Source: Ignavibacteriaceae bacterium (GTDB lineage: Bacteria; Bacteroidota; Ignavibacteria; Ignavibacteriales; Ignavibacteriaceae). Taken from it: a stretch of DNA of 59,071 nt. The stretch covers positions 1-59,071 of the forward strand of contig JACZKK010000076.1 in the NCBI GenBank assembly GCA_014860115.1, written 5' to 3'. Under the pieces are notes generated by a model. It made no database searches. It saw only the letters and a list, made by a program, of their open reading frames with translations, and had not been told where the DNA came from. Shown piece by piece: positions 21,284-32,902 of this stretch (position 1 is the first letter of the stretch; each line of letters begins with the position of its first letter). The position numbers were made by a program, and so were the translations under genes.

Positions 21284-21519
21284 TCAAAAACATTAAAGAG
21301 TGAATTGCTATTATAAAAATAAACGTATCTCATTAACCGACAAAAATGTCTATTATCTGAGTATGTATAATTGAATCACAAATATCATTCTGAGTCAAGA
21401 AATTGACTTGATATTTATAAAATTAAGCAAAAACGTAAATATTAACTGGAATAAAAGTTGGCTTCATCAACTGCAATGAATATTATAATCACAAAGTTAA
21501 AACAGTAAAAGAGGGTATT

Positions 21520-21900
21520 ATGGAAGACTTTGAACAGAAAGTAGTTGACGATGTAGTAGTTGAAGTAGTGAACCTTACTCGTGCAACCTGGAAGGAGGCA
21601 AATCAATTCAAACTGATTCTTCAGGCTGATATTGAAAAGAAATTTAAAAAATTAGTCGTAGATATAAGCAAAATCGAATTTATGGATTCTACCTTTTTAG
21701 GAACACTTGTCCTTACAAAAAGAAACATAACGCAGATTGGCGGAGACCTAAAATTGGTAGAACCACTTTCTGTTTTTAAAGCTCTTATGGAAAAGACTTC
21801 AACACTGAATATTTTTGAAACATATAAAAGTGCAAGTGACGCTGTAAAAAGTTTTAAGCACGTTGAACCTATCAAACCATCGGTTCGATTACACGTGTAA
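21520..21900 (+). CDS. STAS-domain anti-sigma factor antagonist
   Basis: Single STAS domain (126 residues) of the SpoIIAA/RsbV type. The phosphorylatable serine is S57 in FMDSTFLG, where SpoIIAA has S58. Such proteins bind and inhibit an anti-sigma kinase when unphosphorylated (family knowledge). No kinase or sigma factor gene is next to it, so its partner is elsewhere. The ATG has a GAGGG ribosome-binding site, and a strong intrinsic terminator follows, so it appears to be a monocistronic transcript. Confidence 0.88.
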   Translation: MEDFEQKVVDDVVVEVVNLTRATWKEANQFKLILQADIEKKFKKLVVDISKIEFMDSTFLGTLVLTKRNITQIGGDLKLVEPLSVFKALMEKTSTLNIFETYKSASDAVKSFKHVEPIKPSVRLHV

Positions 21901-21930
21901 TAAAGTACTTGTAGGGAAGCAAATACGTAG

Positions 21931-21963
21931 AAAGCCACTCTTTTTTTTCAGAGTGGCTTTTTT
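21931..21963 (+). terminator. Intrinsic terminator after the STAS gene
   Basis: Perfect 10-bp stem AAAGCCACTC / GAGTGGCTTT with a T-rich 10-base loop and a T run following on the + strand. It ends the STAS transcript 30 bases past the stop and separates it from the converging tRNA-Leu transcript. Confidence 0.85.
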
Positions 21964-21990
21964 CATTAATTCTTATCTTGAAAAAGTATG

Positions 21991-22074
21991 TGCCCGGAAC
22001 AGGACTTGAACCTGCACTGGCTTGCGCCAACTAGCTCCTGAAGCTAGCGTGTATACCAATTTCACCATCCGGGC
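21991..22074 (-). tRNA. tRNA-Leu (anticodon CAG)
   Basis: 84-nt type II tRNA read from the minus strand. Acceptor stem GCCCGGA / TCCGGGC with discriminator A, D arm GTGAAATTGGTATACAC, anticodon stem CTAGC / GCTAG with loop TTCAGGA (CAG), a variable arm with a GGC..GCC stem, and T arm with GGTTCAAGTCC. CCA is not encoded. It starts only 5 bases after the stop codon of the GIY-YIG gene, so both are probably on one transcript. A partial second copy of its 5' half lies on the far side of that gene. Confidence 0.95.
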
Positions 22075-22079
22075 AATAA

Positions 22080-22316
22080 TCACTTTAATTTTTTTAAGAA
22101 CTCTTTTCCTACGCCTGACTTAAAATATTTTTCTCTCTTTCTTGCATCTTCTCTTGTTGGTTGTTCTTCCCAATACATCAATTCAAATGGTCGGTATGCT
22201 CTTGTAGTTATTTCACGTCCAGAATTATGCCTTCGAATCCTCTCATCCAGATCCGCTGTCAAACCAACATATATATAATTTCTTACCATGCTTTTTATTG
22301 CATATACTTTATACAC
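22080..22316 (-). CDS. Small GIY-YIG nuclease, tRNA-associated
   Basis: A 78-residue stand-alone GIY-YIG (URI-type) nuclease domain: VYAIKS and YIYVGLT form the GIY/YIG strands, then DLDERIRRHNSG with the conserved Arg and His, and an Arg/Lys-rich end with REKYFKSGVGKEFLKKLK. Start is GTG at 22316, because a TAG stop lies just upstream in frame. This GTG directly follows the point where homology to the tRNA-Leu 5' half ends. No DNA-binding extension is present. Small proteins of this kind are common in Bacteroidota-type genomes and their function is unsettled; a homing-type role is inferred here from the tRNA context. Confidence 0.85.
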   Translation of the reverse strand: MYKVYAIKSMVRNYIYVGLTADLDERIRRHNSGREITTRAYRPFELMYWEEQPTREDARKREKYFKSGVGKEFLKKLK

Positions 22317-22370
22317 AAGCTAGCGTGCCTGCCTGTCGGCAGACAGGTATACCAATTTCACCATCTGGGC
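22317..22370 (-). pseudogene. Duplicate 5' half of tRNA-Leu, interrupted by a palindrome
   Basis: On the minus strand this repeats the first 34 bases of the intact tRNA-Leu (acceptor strand, D arm, anticodon stem to the TT before the CAG anticodon). 33 of 34 bases match once the 20-base insert at 22328-22347 is removed. It lacks the anticodon and the 3' half and so cannot be a tRNA. It lies directly upstream of the GIY-YIG start codon, in the same orientation as the intact tRNA. Confidence 0.85.
22328..22347. repeat. 20-bp dispersed palindrome, copy 1
   Basis: CCTGCCTGTCGGCAGACAGG, a near-perfect inverted repeat around GTCGGCAGAC, inserted precisely between GTG and TAT of the tRNA fragment. 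Related copies are at 58121-58140 (complete, opposite orientation) and 32863-32884 (altered). Confidence 0.8.
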
Positions 22371-22374
22371 TAAT

Positions 22375-22482
22375 ACAATGAATAATTAAGAATGAACAAT
22401 TAAGAATTAAAAGTTAATTGTACAACAAATGTAAAGTTTTAATATCGATTTTCCAGATACTTAATTGTTCATTATTCATTGT
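22375..22482. repeat. AT-rich inverted repeat pair
   Basis: The arms ACAATGAATAATTAAGAATG... (22375-22404) and CTTAATTGTTCATTATTCAT... (22460-22482) are reverse complements apart from a short indel, separated by about 55 bases, and could fold into a long hairpin downstream of the PBP1A gene. A related single arm occurs near 40277-40312 beside the SRP RNA. It could act as a terminator or be a small non-coding mobile repeat. Confidence 0.55.
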
Positions 22483-22500
22483 TATTTTTTAATTGACCAA

Positions 22501-24774
22501 TTACCATCCAGTTTCCCCTGTTCTTTCTTCTCTTATAATTACATTCTTATCAGTATGAATTTCGCAGGTCATCGGGAGATGCTTTGAGTTGATGATGTCG
22601 TAGATAATTTCCGGACAGTAATTGTTTGCGAGCCTTGGGTCACCAAGATCCATCGTTTTCTTGCAGAACGCAACTGTATCAACACCTTCCGAATAATTAA
22701 AATATCCCACGGGAATTTTAATCTCCTTGTAAGCACCTTCCATAAACATTGCCCAGATCGGAAGCGCAGCTCTAGCACCCTGGCCATACCAATCGGTGAA
22801 CTTAACTCTGTGATCATCAAACCCAACCCAGCATCCGCCAACAAACTCCGGAGTATAACCAACAAACCATGCATCGGAAAAGTTTTGTGTTGTTCCTGTC
22901 TTTCCTGCTGCCGGGTATTGGTAATATCTTCTTACTCCTGCGCCGGTTCCATAATCAACTACATCCATCATCATACTTTCCATAATTGATGCTGTTTGAG
23001 GTGTAATCGCTTGCACATACTCCGGTACGAACTGATCAATCAGGATACCATTTTTATCTTCAATCTTTAAAATAGAAATGTTTTGAATGTGAATACCTTT
23101 GTTTACAAATGTTCCAAAAGCAGAAGTCAACTCGAGTGGTGAAACCTCAGAGGTTCCAAGCGCTATTGCAGGATACGGATCAATTTTAGAATTGATCCCC
23201 ATCCTCTGTGCAATCTTAACAACCTGCTTCGGTGGAGCAATTTCACTTATGGTCATTCTTCCTGTAATTACGTTTAGAGATTTTGCAAGTGCAAATCTCA
23301 TTGTTTCGTAACCGGAATATTCGCCATCGGAGTTAGAGGGACTCCAGCCATTGTAATCAAACTTCTGATTCAGTATTGCAAAGGCAGGATAATAACCATT
23401 CTCAATTGCTGTTGCATAAATAATCGGTTTAAATGACGAACCAGGTTGTCTCTTTATTCCTGTTACATGATTTAATCCCCTTCCAAATATCTGGTTAGTT
23501 CCTCCCACCAAAGCTTTAATTTCTCCAGTGAATGGATCAATGACAACAAAACCAACCTCTATTCTTGTAGCAACAAATTTAACAGAATCAATAAAAGCTT
23601 CATCTTTCTTTAAACGGTTATATATGGTTGCTTTATTCTCCTTAGATTCTGCGCTTCTATATTCACGGGATTTTTTTATCGCTTCATCTATAAGAGTTGC
23701 AAGTAAATCTTTGTTTTTGTTCCAGCTCCAATTTTTGTCAAATAATTTTTGATATTCCTGTATATGCTTTGCAGCAACTTCATTTGCAATCTTCTGCATA
23801 CGGATATCGATTGAAGTATAGATATTCAAACCATCGCGGTACATATCGTATCCATATTTATCAGCAAGCTCGGACAATTGCAGACGTACATATTCCATAA
23901 AGTGTGGAGCAACTGTTCTCATAACATTTGGTTTTTCTGAAGCAAGCACAATTGGTTCCTGCTTTAATTTATCATATTCATCCTTATCGAGAAAACCAGT
24001 AGACACCATATTATACATTACAAGGTTTCTTCGCTTTAATGCATTATCATAATTATTTACAGGATCAAAATCTCTTGGTGATTTGAGTAAAGCAACAAAC
24101 AATGCAGCTTCAGGAAGAGTCAGTTCGCTGGCACTTTTGCCAAAGTAAACCCGACTTGCAGCTTCTATTCCGTAGGCACTTCTTCCGAGGTACGAAACAT
24201 TCAGGTAGAGTTCAATTATTTCTTTCTTGGTGAAGTTTCTCTCAATCTGAATAGCTGTGATCCATTCCCTGATTTTTCTTACACCTTTATCAATCTTTGT
24301 TTCCCTGGTTACTTTCAACTCATAAAGATTTCTGGCAAGCTGCTGAGTTAATGTACTGGCTCCCTCTGCAAGCGATAATGAAAAAAGATTTTTAACCATC
24401 GCCTTAAAAAACCTTGTAACATCAACTCCCCAGTGATCGTAAAACTTCCTGTCTTCAGTCGCAATTAAAGCTTTAATTAAATGATCTGGAAGCTTATTTA
24501 ATTGAGTCTCAATCCTGTTCTCAATAAAGTATTGACCTAATAATTCTCCGTCAGCTGAAAATACTTTGCTTGCAAGCTGCGGTTTAGGATTTTCAAGCTC
24601 CTCAAGGGATGGTAAACCGCTGTAAATGATGGCTAAAAATGTCCCGAGCAGAACAAATGCAACTGAACCGCCAATTAACCAATATTTTTTCTTTTTAGTA
24701 TTTTTTTTCTTTTTCATCTTTTTATTTCGATAAGACGGATCATCAAAATATTTATCGTAATCTGAGTCAGTCAT
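22501..24774 (-). CDS. Penicillin-binding protein 1A (bifunctional transglycosylase/transpeptidase)
   Basis: Class A PBP of 757 residues that polymerises and cross-links peptidoglycan. A Lys-rich cytoplasmic start is followed by one membrane segment (YWLIGGSVAFVLLGTFLAII). The GT51 domain has ATEDRKFYDHWGVD and GASTLTQQLARNLY. The transpeptidase domain has SSFK (catalytic Ser), SLN and KTGTT. All active-site motifs are intact. lpxH lies 13 bases upstream on the same strand, so the two may be co-transcribed. Confidence 0.95.
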   Translation of the reverse strand: MTDSDYDKYFDDPSYRNKKMKKKKNTKKKKYWLIGGSVAFVLLGTFLAIIYSGLPSLEELENPKPQLASKVFSADGELLGQYFIENRIETQLNKLPDHLIKALIATEDRKFYDHWGVDVTRFFKAMVKNLFSLSLAEGASTLTQQLARNLYELKVTRETKIDKGVRKIREWITAIQIERNFTKKEIIELYLNVSYLGRSAYGIEAASRVYFGKSASELTLPEAALFVALLKSPRDFDPVNNYDNALKRRNLVMYNMVSTGFLDKDEYDKLKQEPIVLASEKPNVMRTVAPHFMEYVRLQLSELADKYGYDMYRDGLNIYTSIDIRMQKIANEVAAKHIQEYQKLFDKNWSWNKNKDLLATLIDEAIKKSREYRSAESKENKATIYNRLKKDEAFIDSVKFVATRIEVGFVVIDPFTGEIKALVGGTNQIFGRGLNHVTGIKRQPGSSFKPIIYATAIENGYYPAFAILNQKFDYNGWSPSNSDGEYSGYETMRFALAKSLNVITGRMTISEIAPPKQVVKIAQRMGINSKIDPYPAIALGTSEVSPLELTSAFGTFVNKGIHIQNISILKIEDKNGILIDQFVPEYVQAITPQTASIMESMMMDVVDYGTGAGVRRYYQYPAAGKTGTTQNFSDAWFVGYTPEFVGGCWVGFDDHRVKFTDWYGQGARAALPIWAMFMEGAYKEIKIPVGYFNYSEGVDTVAFCKKTMDLGDPRLANNYCPEIIYDIINSKHLPMTCEIHTDKNVIIREERTGETGW

Positions 24775-31930: not shown

Positions 31931-32422
31931 TCACATCATCAAATTATCCGGGTTGACTTTTTCTAATTCCCATTTTAATGGATTCTCATCAATGTATTTT
32001 CTTATTTGAAATAATTCTTTTTCGTTTCTTATAATTCTATCAAAGAATGATTTCTGCCATTCAAATTCATTGGGATTAGTGAGATTCTCACGGATTTTCT
32101 TTGTACAATATGATTTAAATTTACCAATTATATTTGATAGTGAATGATTTTTACCTCTCAAACCGTTGTCAAGAATTAAAATCAAATGAAGATGATCGGG
32201 CATAATCACATAATAATCAATTTCGACACTATAAAAATCTGATAGAGTTTTTAAGATTTGGTCTACAATTAAACCATATTTGGAAAGTACGATATTTGAA
32301 TTAACAACTCGCGAAAAGAATTCTCTTCGATTCTTAATACAAATAGTTACGAAATAAAATCCATATTTAGAATAATCATATTCTTTTAATCGGGTTCTTT
32401 TTCTTTTAGGAAGTTTATTCAT
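31931..32422 (-). CDS. REP-associated tyrosine transposase (RAYT, Y1/IS200-like)
   Basis: A 163-residue HUH single-strand transposase: YDYSKYGFYFVTICIKNR (first strand), the HUH motif MPDHLHLIL (H77, H79) and catalytic Y143 in RKYIDENPLKW. The KSFFDRIIRNEKEL segment is typical of RAYTs, domesticated relatives of IS200/IS605 that act on REP palindromes. It is intact. It sits between two arrays of the same palindromic unit, as RAYT genes do. Base composition does not differ visibly from its neighbours. Confidence 0.93.
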   Translation of the reverse strand: MNKLPKRKRTRLKEYDYSKYGFYFVTICIKNRREFFSRVVNSNIVLSKYGLIVDQILKTLSDFYSVEIDYYVIMPDHLHLILILDNGLRGKNHSLSNIIGKFKSYCTKKIRENLTNPNEFEWQKSFFDRIIRNEKELFQIRKYIDENPLKWELEKVNPDNLMM

Positions 32423-32519: not shown

Positions 32520-32902
32520 TGTAGGAATCAATTTCCTCACTGATATGCCTGTAAATATAAAATTATATTACGGAACGAATAGGAATATATTTCCTACATT
32601 GCTTGAAATTTGTAGGGATCGATCTCCCGATCGATCCGTTATCAAAAATAAAACATAAATTCGGAACGGATGGGAATCCGTTCCCTACATCAATCATTTT
32701 TTTTTGAAATTTGTAGGGATTGGTCTCCCGATCGATCCGTTACTAAAAATAAAACATAAATTCGGAACGGATGGGAATCCGCTCCCTACATCAATCAATT
32801 TTTTTTGAAATTTGTAGGGATTGGTCTCCCGACCAATCCGCCATCAATAAATCAGAACGGACAGCCTGCCTGTCGGCAAAGGCAAGGAGTCCGTTCCCTA
32901 CA
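32520..32902. repeat. REP array right of the transposase (four 79-bp units, 101-bp period)
   Basis: Units at 32520-32598 (diverged), 32611-32689, 32712-32790 and 32813-32902. The middle two are almost identical and separated by a conserved 22-base spacer, giving a 101-bp period. Each unit is bounded by TGTAGGGA and TCCCTACA and holds two hairpins. The last unit is lengthened by an inserted, altered copy of the 20-bp dispersed palindrome (about 32863-32884). These fill most of the 687-bp gap between the transposase and the next gene; the rest (32903-33109) shows only a small CTCCTAAAGGAG palindrome and the leader of the following gene. Confidence 0.9.

Follow-up and report, generated by a model that had tools for sequence, protein, structure and literature searches.

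In the window, the whole 59,071-nt stretch of Ignavibacteriaceae DNA analysed here, a small GIY-YIG nuclease gene lies between a 5′ remnant of a tRNA-Leu gene and a complete tRNA-Leu(CAG) gene. The same layout recurs in other genomes, together with empty sites in other species, tandem arrays, nucleases that sort by tRNA isoacceptor, hairpins concentrated in the loops of displaced tRNA copies and, at one locus, an apparent replacement of half a tRNA gene. We consider it probable, though well short of certain, that these loci represent a family of minimal mobile elements, each consisting of a small GIY-YIG gene and a piece of host tRNA, specific for certain isoacceptors and behaving much as homing endonucleases do. 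The evidence points to a selfish element that lives in tRNA genes without destroying them.

A GIY-YIG gene between a tRNA-Leu remnant and an intact tRNA-Leu

The locus is encoded on the minus strand and consists of a 5′ tRNA-Leu remnant (22370-22317), the GIY-YIG open reading frame (22316-22080), a 5-base gap after the nuclease stop codon (22075-22079) and the intact tRNA-Leu(CAG) (22074-21990). ARAGORN and Rfam (RF00005, 56.6 bits) both identified the intact gene, which matches the tRNA-Leu(CAG) of G004 and G005 at 85/85 positions. The nuclease gene, taken from the list of open reading frames, has a GTG start, encodes 78 residues and matches only GIY-YIG in Pfam (PF01541, E = 3.1e-17). The remnant is interrupted in its D-loop by a 20-bp palindrome (22327-22346, CTGTCTGCCGACAGGCAGGC). 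Nucleotides 1-24 of the tRNA (22347-22370) precede the palindrome with 23/24 matches (one mismatch, 96%), and nucleotides 25-34 (22317-22326) follow it with 10/10 matches to the intact copy and end immediately 5′ of the anticodon position. The GTG start comes directly after nucleotide 34 of the remnant, so that the start codon occupies the position of the anticodon. A PBP1A-family gene (22501-24774, minus strand; TIGR02074) is a conserved neighbour by synteny and lies outside the element.

An Rfam search of 21400-22960 returned tRNA alone above the gathering score and no group I intron match up to E = 1, and we therefore rejected an intron reading. The GIY-YIG frame stands alone, in neither an intron nor an intein as judged from Rfam and the list of open reading frames. 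It is the sole sense-strand frame of at least 50 aa lying wholly between the tRNA pieces, and no integrase gene was found there. PADLOC anti-phage defence models matched 0 families up to E = 0.01. When the whole remnant was folded as a single strand it was not unusually stable (z = -0.12; the remnant at L024 gave z = -2.15).

These results bear out what an earlier note on this DNA had described, namely a GIY-YIG gene between a 5′ tRNA-Leu remnant and a complete tRNA-Leu (by ARAGORN, Rfam and Pfam), with no intron and no integrase. Its count of 33/34 matching positions between the remnant (22317-22370) and tRNA nucleotides 1-34 also stands, once the D-loop palindrome, which it had omitted, is excluded from the comparison.

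Small GIY-YIG genes are commonly found beside tRNA genes

When named genomes were scanned with five Leu-type proteins, 334 relatives emerged, from which the best 80 were kept on protein similarity alone, a set that is Leu-biased by the query. Within these best 80 of 334, an intact tRNA lies no more than 150 bp away at 76 loci, on the same strand in 76/76 cases (75 Leu, 1 Ser). At the other four the stretch covered contains no intact tRNA, and three of them show tRNA fragments. The 80 loci belong to Bacteroidota, Ignavibacteria and Patescibacteria, and other clades of the nuclease adjoin Ser, Met, Cys, Asn, Asp, Arg or Pro tRNA genes. The layout in the window is not due to chance, since it was found again in other genomes; the recurrent same-strand association across relatives likewise excludes a chance tRNA fragment beside an unrelated frame.

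In a draw of 395 genomes of the phylum, 140 had matches at E ≤ 1e-6. At 18 of the 20 best-scoring new loci a tRNA lies within 150 bp; at another the distance is 441 bp, and the last shows a fragment only. All 19 tRNAs are on the same strand as the nuclease gene. Six complete genomes contain 38 GIY places by our own grouping of Pfam hits, with long UvrC-like frames left out. Twenty of them lie within 150 bp of a tRNA, against a chance expectation of about 0.5% (an estimate that assumes some 45 tRNA genes per genome), four more lie at 183-542 bp or have remnants, and 14 have none (among these, L222 has a short tRNA-like match and L236 is missed by our own profile).

We rejected the possibility that the element is a phage or plasmid passenger: of 30 pattern matches in viral contigs 0 were confirmed as relatives, plasmids gave no match and 11 phage records were all below 60% identity. 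These searches thus identify no vehicle for the element.

Occupied and empty sites beside the PBP1A gene

Syntenic sites in relatives were located through the C-terminal end of the upstream PBP1A-family gene. Among 30 such loci, 19 have an intact tRNA-Leu(CAG) and, within the stretch covered, no GIY gene, six have a GIY gene (G000, which is the window's genome, and G002, G003, G023, G024 and G038) and five have neither in the stretches covered. The empty sites include those of the congeners G001, G004 and G005, each with one intact tRNA-Leu(CAG) after PBP1A and no nuclease. Occupied and empty alleles (6 and 19 of 30) come from different species, not from strains. Compared with G004, whose contig stops directly after the tRNA and so covers the upstream side, the window holds additional sequence between PBP1A and the tRNA, made up of the remnant, the palindrome and the nuclease. 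Both the empty sites and the small GIY-YIG genes bounded by tRNA pieces that the earlier note had thought worth seeking therefore exist, the latter commonly. The complete identity of the window's tRNA to those of the empty-site congeners G004 and G005 gives no sign that its own 5′ half was imported.

Two further observations concern this locus. The long PBP1A-tRNA-Leu spacer of G017 (L068) holds a tRNA-Leu-like remnant with an insert, possibly the trace of a lost element; tblastn found no GIY relic in it. In G002 (C1, about 62,900-64,300; L307) a transposase-like frame, which we take to be IS256-like, separates the GIY array from the intact tRNA-Leu(CAG), and the PBP1A-tRNA spacer is partly repeated around it.

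The nuclease is conserved and sorts largely by tRNA isotype

In 28 aligned sequences, Y5, Y16, G18, R26, H30 and E62 are among the eight invariant columns; we take these to be the catalytic residues of GIY-YIG nucleases. Between the window's nuclease and that of G002, dS is 0.80 and dN 0.137 (dN/dS about 0.17), and between tandem copies the values are 0.13 and 0.011 in G002 and 0.07 and 0.006 in G053. Judged from such rates, the nuclease is under purifying selection. The closest solved chains by profile are 1zg2 (E = 1.6e-13) and 1ywl (E = 1.9e-12), along with five SLX1 sequences, whereas I-TevI (1mk0) reached only E = 0.0034.

A nuclease tree was made by a quick search on about 76 columns, with 27/163 rows having no tRNA and hence no isotype label. 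It needs 12 changes of tRNA isotype among 61 rows from relatives, against a minimum of 31 in 200 shuffles. Rows at Leu, Cys, Asp, most Met and most Asn tRNAs cluster together, and those at Ser and Arg fall into several groups; Arg, Met, Asn and Ser rows each occur in more than one place. The protein tree thus sorts largely by tRNA isotype. Nine Patescibacteria among 78 rows of the protein tree (again about 76 columns) are interspersed so that at least six changes are needed, which suggests that the nuclease elements have been transferred between phyla.

Displaced tRNA copies carry hairpins in their loops

The palindrome in the window's remnant is one of many. Remnants contain 205 inserts of at least 10 nt (array repeats counted), of which 159 have a stem of at least 5 bp; after shuffling, 13% of inserts do. 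A length of exactly 20 bp is found in 81 of the inserts. Distinct hairpin inserts lie in D-, anticodon- or T-loops in 97/107 cases, where about 43 would be expected from random placement. The Leu-type palindrome, allowing up to four mismatches, is found near the GIY gene (within 130 bp upstream or 200 bp downstream) in 65/80 loci, and in 7/443 control windows 700-1200 bp away at the same loci. We rejected the idea that the number of GIY genes drives the number of palindromes, as the two show no clear relation: G007 has 52 forward palindrome matches and three GIY genes, and G050 has none and nine.

In the window's genome the palindrome CCTGCCTGCCGGCAGGCAGG and its variants are dispersed over sites L091-L109, where they encode LPAGRQG peptides when inside reading frames and, by eye, also occupy the loops of other hairpins. 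The window itself contains a REP-associated tyrosine transposase (RAYT) gene at 31931-32422 on the minus strand (NF047646, 81.9 bits, cut-off 80). By eye it has REP-like repeats on both sides, and the copy near 32860-32895 has an insert in its loop resembling the element's palindrome. It is separate from the element, whose protein matches only GIY-YIG in Pfam and is not an HUH Y1 transposase.

GIY-YIG genes away from tRNA genes

Of the 27 rows without a tRNA, 11 cluster at one edge of the tree, in a group that also includes one Asn-associated row. These 11 and three other tRNA-less loci were compared with 300 control windows from other loci, and 11 of the 14 have direct or inverted repeats in their flanks above the 99th percentile. 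Nine of those 11 come from the clustered group and six are REP-like by eye. GIY genes seen between flank repeats, several of them REP-like by eye, in the absence of a tRNA include those at G002:C1:910389 (L220), G000:C209:7091 (L006), L223, L230, L233, L238, L240 and L241, the last two of which may be copies of each other. By eye, the same carB-like frame appears to adjoin both L006 and L220, and at G002:C1:2617851 (L059) a 13-bp inverted repeat, ACCCCGTCAAATA, flanks the GIY-YIG gene. The rule may therefore extend beyond tRNA genes, to a small GIY-YIG gene lying between copies of a repeated and often hairpin-forming host sequence.

Such loci raise the alternative that DNA hairpins of any kind are the substrate of the GIY-YIG proteins, which, somewhat as RAYTs do, would live in palindromic repeats and spread them, with tRNA genes serving as one kind of hairpin-rich landing site and tRNA duplication arising as a by-product. 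The clustering of tRNA-less rows, the in part REP-like flank repeats, the concentration of inserts in tRNA loops and, by eye, in the loops of other hairpins, and the presence of SLX1, a structure-specific nuclease, among the closest solved relatives are all in line with this. We nevertheless consider it unlikely: palindrome number is unlinked to GIY number, the sorting by isotype suggests recognition of more than a hairpin, and the window's genome also has an ordinary RAYT surrounded by REP-like repeats.

Two geometries, remnant junctions and tandem arrays

The elements occur in two geometries. In the type seen in the window (type A) a 5′ remnant, the nuclease and the intact tRNA follow one another, and the tRNA is downstream in 52/76 loci. 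In the mirror arrangement (type B, 24/76) the tRNA is upstream and a 3′ remnant comes after the nuclease. A remnant was recognised for 172/188 GIY genes with a same-strand tRNA no more than 2.5 kb away, a count that includes array copies (one spacer in arrays being counted twice) but neither duplicate loci nor those numbered 60-109 and 190-219. Where a type A remnant stops at most 25 nt from the GIY domain, its end falls between positions -6 and +7 relative to the anticodon in 35/48 cases, compared with 16/67 type B remnants, at any distance from the GIY domain, that begin there. The anticodon loop is thus the usual junction for the window's type and not a general rule. Some remnants are near-full-length tRNA copies.

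Against this background, the earlier note's proposal that the tRNA is rebuilt at its 5′ half describes type A, and the 3′-remnant mirror is equally real. Whether the break is confined to the anticodon loop, which it had listed as a check, is answered in the negative by the type B junctions and the near-full-length remnants.

At Leu loci the locus's own tRNA is the best match to the remnant, ties included, in 69/75 cases, and remnant-tRNA identity is 96% within a locus (aligned part only, and so an upper bound) versus 82% between loci. Such a pattern fits intraspecific homing and plain local duplication alike. In the window, the outer half and the inner half belong to one and the same type of tRNA, so that local duplication would account for the arrangement just as well, and on the available sequence its spare half is not distinguishable from a local duplicate.

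Tandem arrays with a unit of nuclease and remnant are present at tRNA-Leu in G023 (5 × 450 bp), at tRNA-Asp in G002 (5 × 315 bp) and at tRNA-Ser in G030 (3 × 323 bp). There are also arrays whose remnant unit has no nuclease, at odds with the earlier note's model as it was stated: tRNA-Met with 6.3 copies of 73 bp and tRNA-Val with 4.5 copies of 124 bp. In these arrays (G011, L231, and G030, L228, respectively) an arm of the tRNA is replaced by a hairpin.

Apparent replacement of a tRNA half in G002

The intact tRNA-Leu(CAG) of G002 is identical to those of G000, G004 and G005 over nucleotides 1-45, and all 12 differences fall in nucleotides 46-85. Among the 85-nt Leu tRNAs compared, its 3′ half is closest to that of G038, which belongs to another family of the order (38/41). 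A piece equal to native nucleotides 60-84 (25/25) lies 26 bp downstream of the tRNA when a 22-bp insert is excluded; the insert is in the T-loop and holds two short inverted repeats. The simplest reading would be that a foreign 3′ half took the place of the native one, whose end was displaced and marked by a hairpin. No GIY gene lies between this tRNA and its remnant. The mosaic supports half-replacement in principle. For the insertion of a spare half, as the earlier note had proposed for the window, it is the one direct support; in the window itself, the 85/85 identity of the tRNA to those of empty-site congeners gives no sign of an imported half.

A tRNA-Cys locus in G041 was considered as a second mosaic and proved ambiguous. 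Its 3′ remnant resembles the tRNA-Cys of another genus, and its intact tRNA shares 97% identity with a congener's, a pattern that is the reverse of G002; the remnant may have been imported or may be a fossil of the ancestral tRNA.

A passive origin would have tRNA genes duplicated in tandem by replication slippage, with a GIY gene trapped long ago and inherited vertically with losses while the spare copies decayed. The 69/75 remnants for which the locus's own tRNA is best or tied, and the existence of remnant arrays without a GIY gene, are what it would lead one to expect, but it does not predict that nucleases sort by isotype and are under purifying selection, that gene and tRNA are strictly co-oriented or that the displaced copy repeatedly acquires hairpins, and the half-replacement in G002 is not a duplication. 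We regard such an origin as improbable.

The hairpins as DNA or RNA

Several tRNA-Ser remnants are marked by a different, double hairpin, for which a search of six genomes gave seven matches in five of them, all no more than about 150 bp from a GIY gene. Across the seven aligned copies 96.9% of cells are paired, compared with at most 52.3% when the pairing is slid, and the covariation score was reached by 0/500 shuffles. Three pairs are changed on both sides, a number reached by 122/500 shuffles. Among mismatches in the Leu palindromes, G.T (37) and A.C (42) are similarly frequent, which gives no sign of selection as RNA, and we rejected selection of the hairpins as RNA on this basis.

It is very improbable that the protein acts on RNA, cutting or processing tRNAs of one isoacceptor type while the hairpin-bearing copy serves on the same transcript as decoy or regulator, a role with which isotype sorting and the conserved pairing and covariation of the Ser hairpins would agree, because the position in the target gene, the tandem arrays and the empty sites are typical of DNA targeting, the Leu palindromes show no RNA-strand bias, the double changes in the Ser hairpin are matched by many shuffles, and the solved relatives SLX1 and I-TevI are DNA nucleases.

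A proposed homing-like route into tRNA genes

If these are isoacceptor-specific homing-like elements, as we favour, the nuclease would cut the tRNA gene on a chromosome lacking the element, and repair templated by the copy that carries it would place the nuclease gene inside the tRNA. A spare half supplied by the element, 5′ as in the window or 3′, would make one tRNA whole again, and the half that was displaced would be left outside as the remnant. Tandem arrays could arise by repeated insertion or by unequal exchange between the duplicated tRNA pieces. The short palindromes in the D-, anticodon- or T-loop of the displaced copy may break the nuclease target there, and may also break the repeat homology that could otherwise delete the nuclease gene.

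Several findings count against homing: the reversed pattern in G041, the mosaic in G002 without a GIY gene, the nuclease-free arrays and the 14/38 GIY places without a tRNA. In addition, a target wholly inside the tRNA would persist in the intact copy of the same cell, and the homing model thus leaves immunity unaccounted for. A more far-reaching proposal is that these elements form a new class, isoacceptor-specific parasites of bacterial chromosomal tRNA genes across phyla that persist in these essential genes because they carry a spare half and silence the displaced copy through hairpins in its loops, with hairpin insertion as part of the mechanism and a sister clade doing the same in REP-like repeats; this we put forward tentatively, as possible but somewhat doubtful.

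Relation to known systems

The closest known system appears to be SegB of phages T4 and T6, which the available part of its description presents as a free-standing GIY-YIG homing endonuclease that adjoins tRNA genes, has been linked to breaks in DNA that contains tRNA genes, promotes the joint amplification of a tRNA and its own gene and has been transferred between phages with hosts of different phyla; no preference for particular tRNA isotypes is reported in that part (PMC13096335). Like SegB, the present element has a GIY-YIG gene outside introns and beside tRNA genes. SegB is phage-borne, and the same part of its description mentions no tRNA halves or hairpin-bearing copies, whereas the window's element is chromosomal and encodes 78 aa; as far as that description goes, sorting of the nucleases by isotype and a tRNA gene that is split and restored also set the element apart. 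Among the matches listed in the open literature, judged on titles and abstract openings, we found no close parallel other than SegB.

Three better-known arrangements share some of the features. Integrase-bearing elements that enter tRNA genes rebuild the 3′ part of their target. They resemble the present element in occupying a tRNA gene and in carrying a spare piece that repairs it, but here there is no integrase between the tRNA pieces, the remnants are of either half and the unit is about 300 bp. Some tRNA genes contain group I introns that encode GIY-YIG homing endonucleases, and these have in common with the element the nuclease domain and the location in the anticodon loop; the element differs in having no intron RNA and in restoring the tRNA by duplication, not by splicing. 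RAYT/REP systems likewise place a small nuclease gene among palindromes, but their nuclease is of a different family. Small GIY-YIG proteins of the UPF0213 and SLX1-like kind are the closest solved chains to the element's protein by profile, and we know of no link between them and split tRNA genes.

A homing element inside an essential gene normally depends on an intron or intein for its survival. Here a partial duplication of the tRNA gene, in about 300 bp of DNA, appears to take over that role. If this is true, it would provide a simple route to duplicated and mosaic tRNA genes in Bacteroidota, Ignavibacteria and Patescibacteria, would account for odd tRNA fragments adjoining small GIY-YIG genes and would make the origin of short dispersed palindromes testable.
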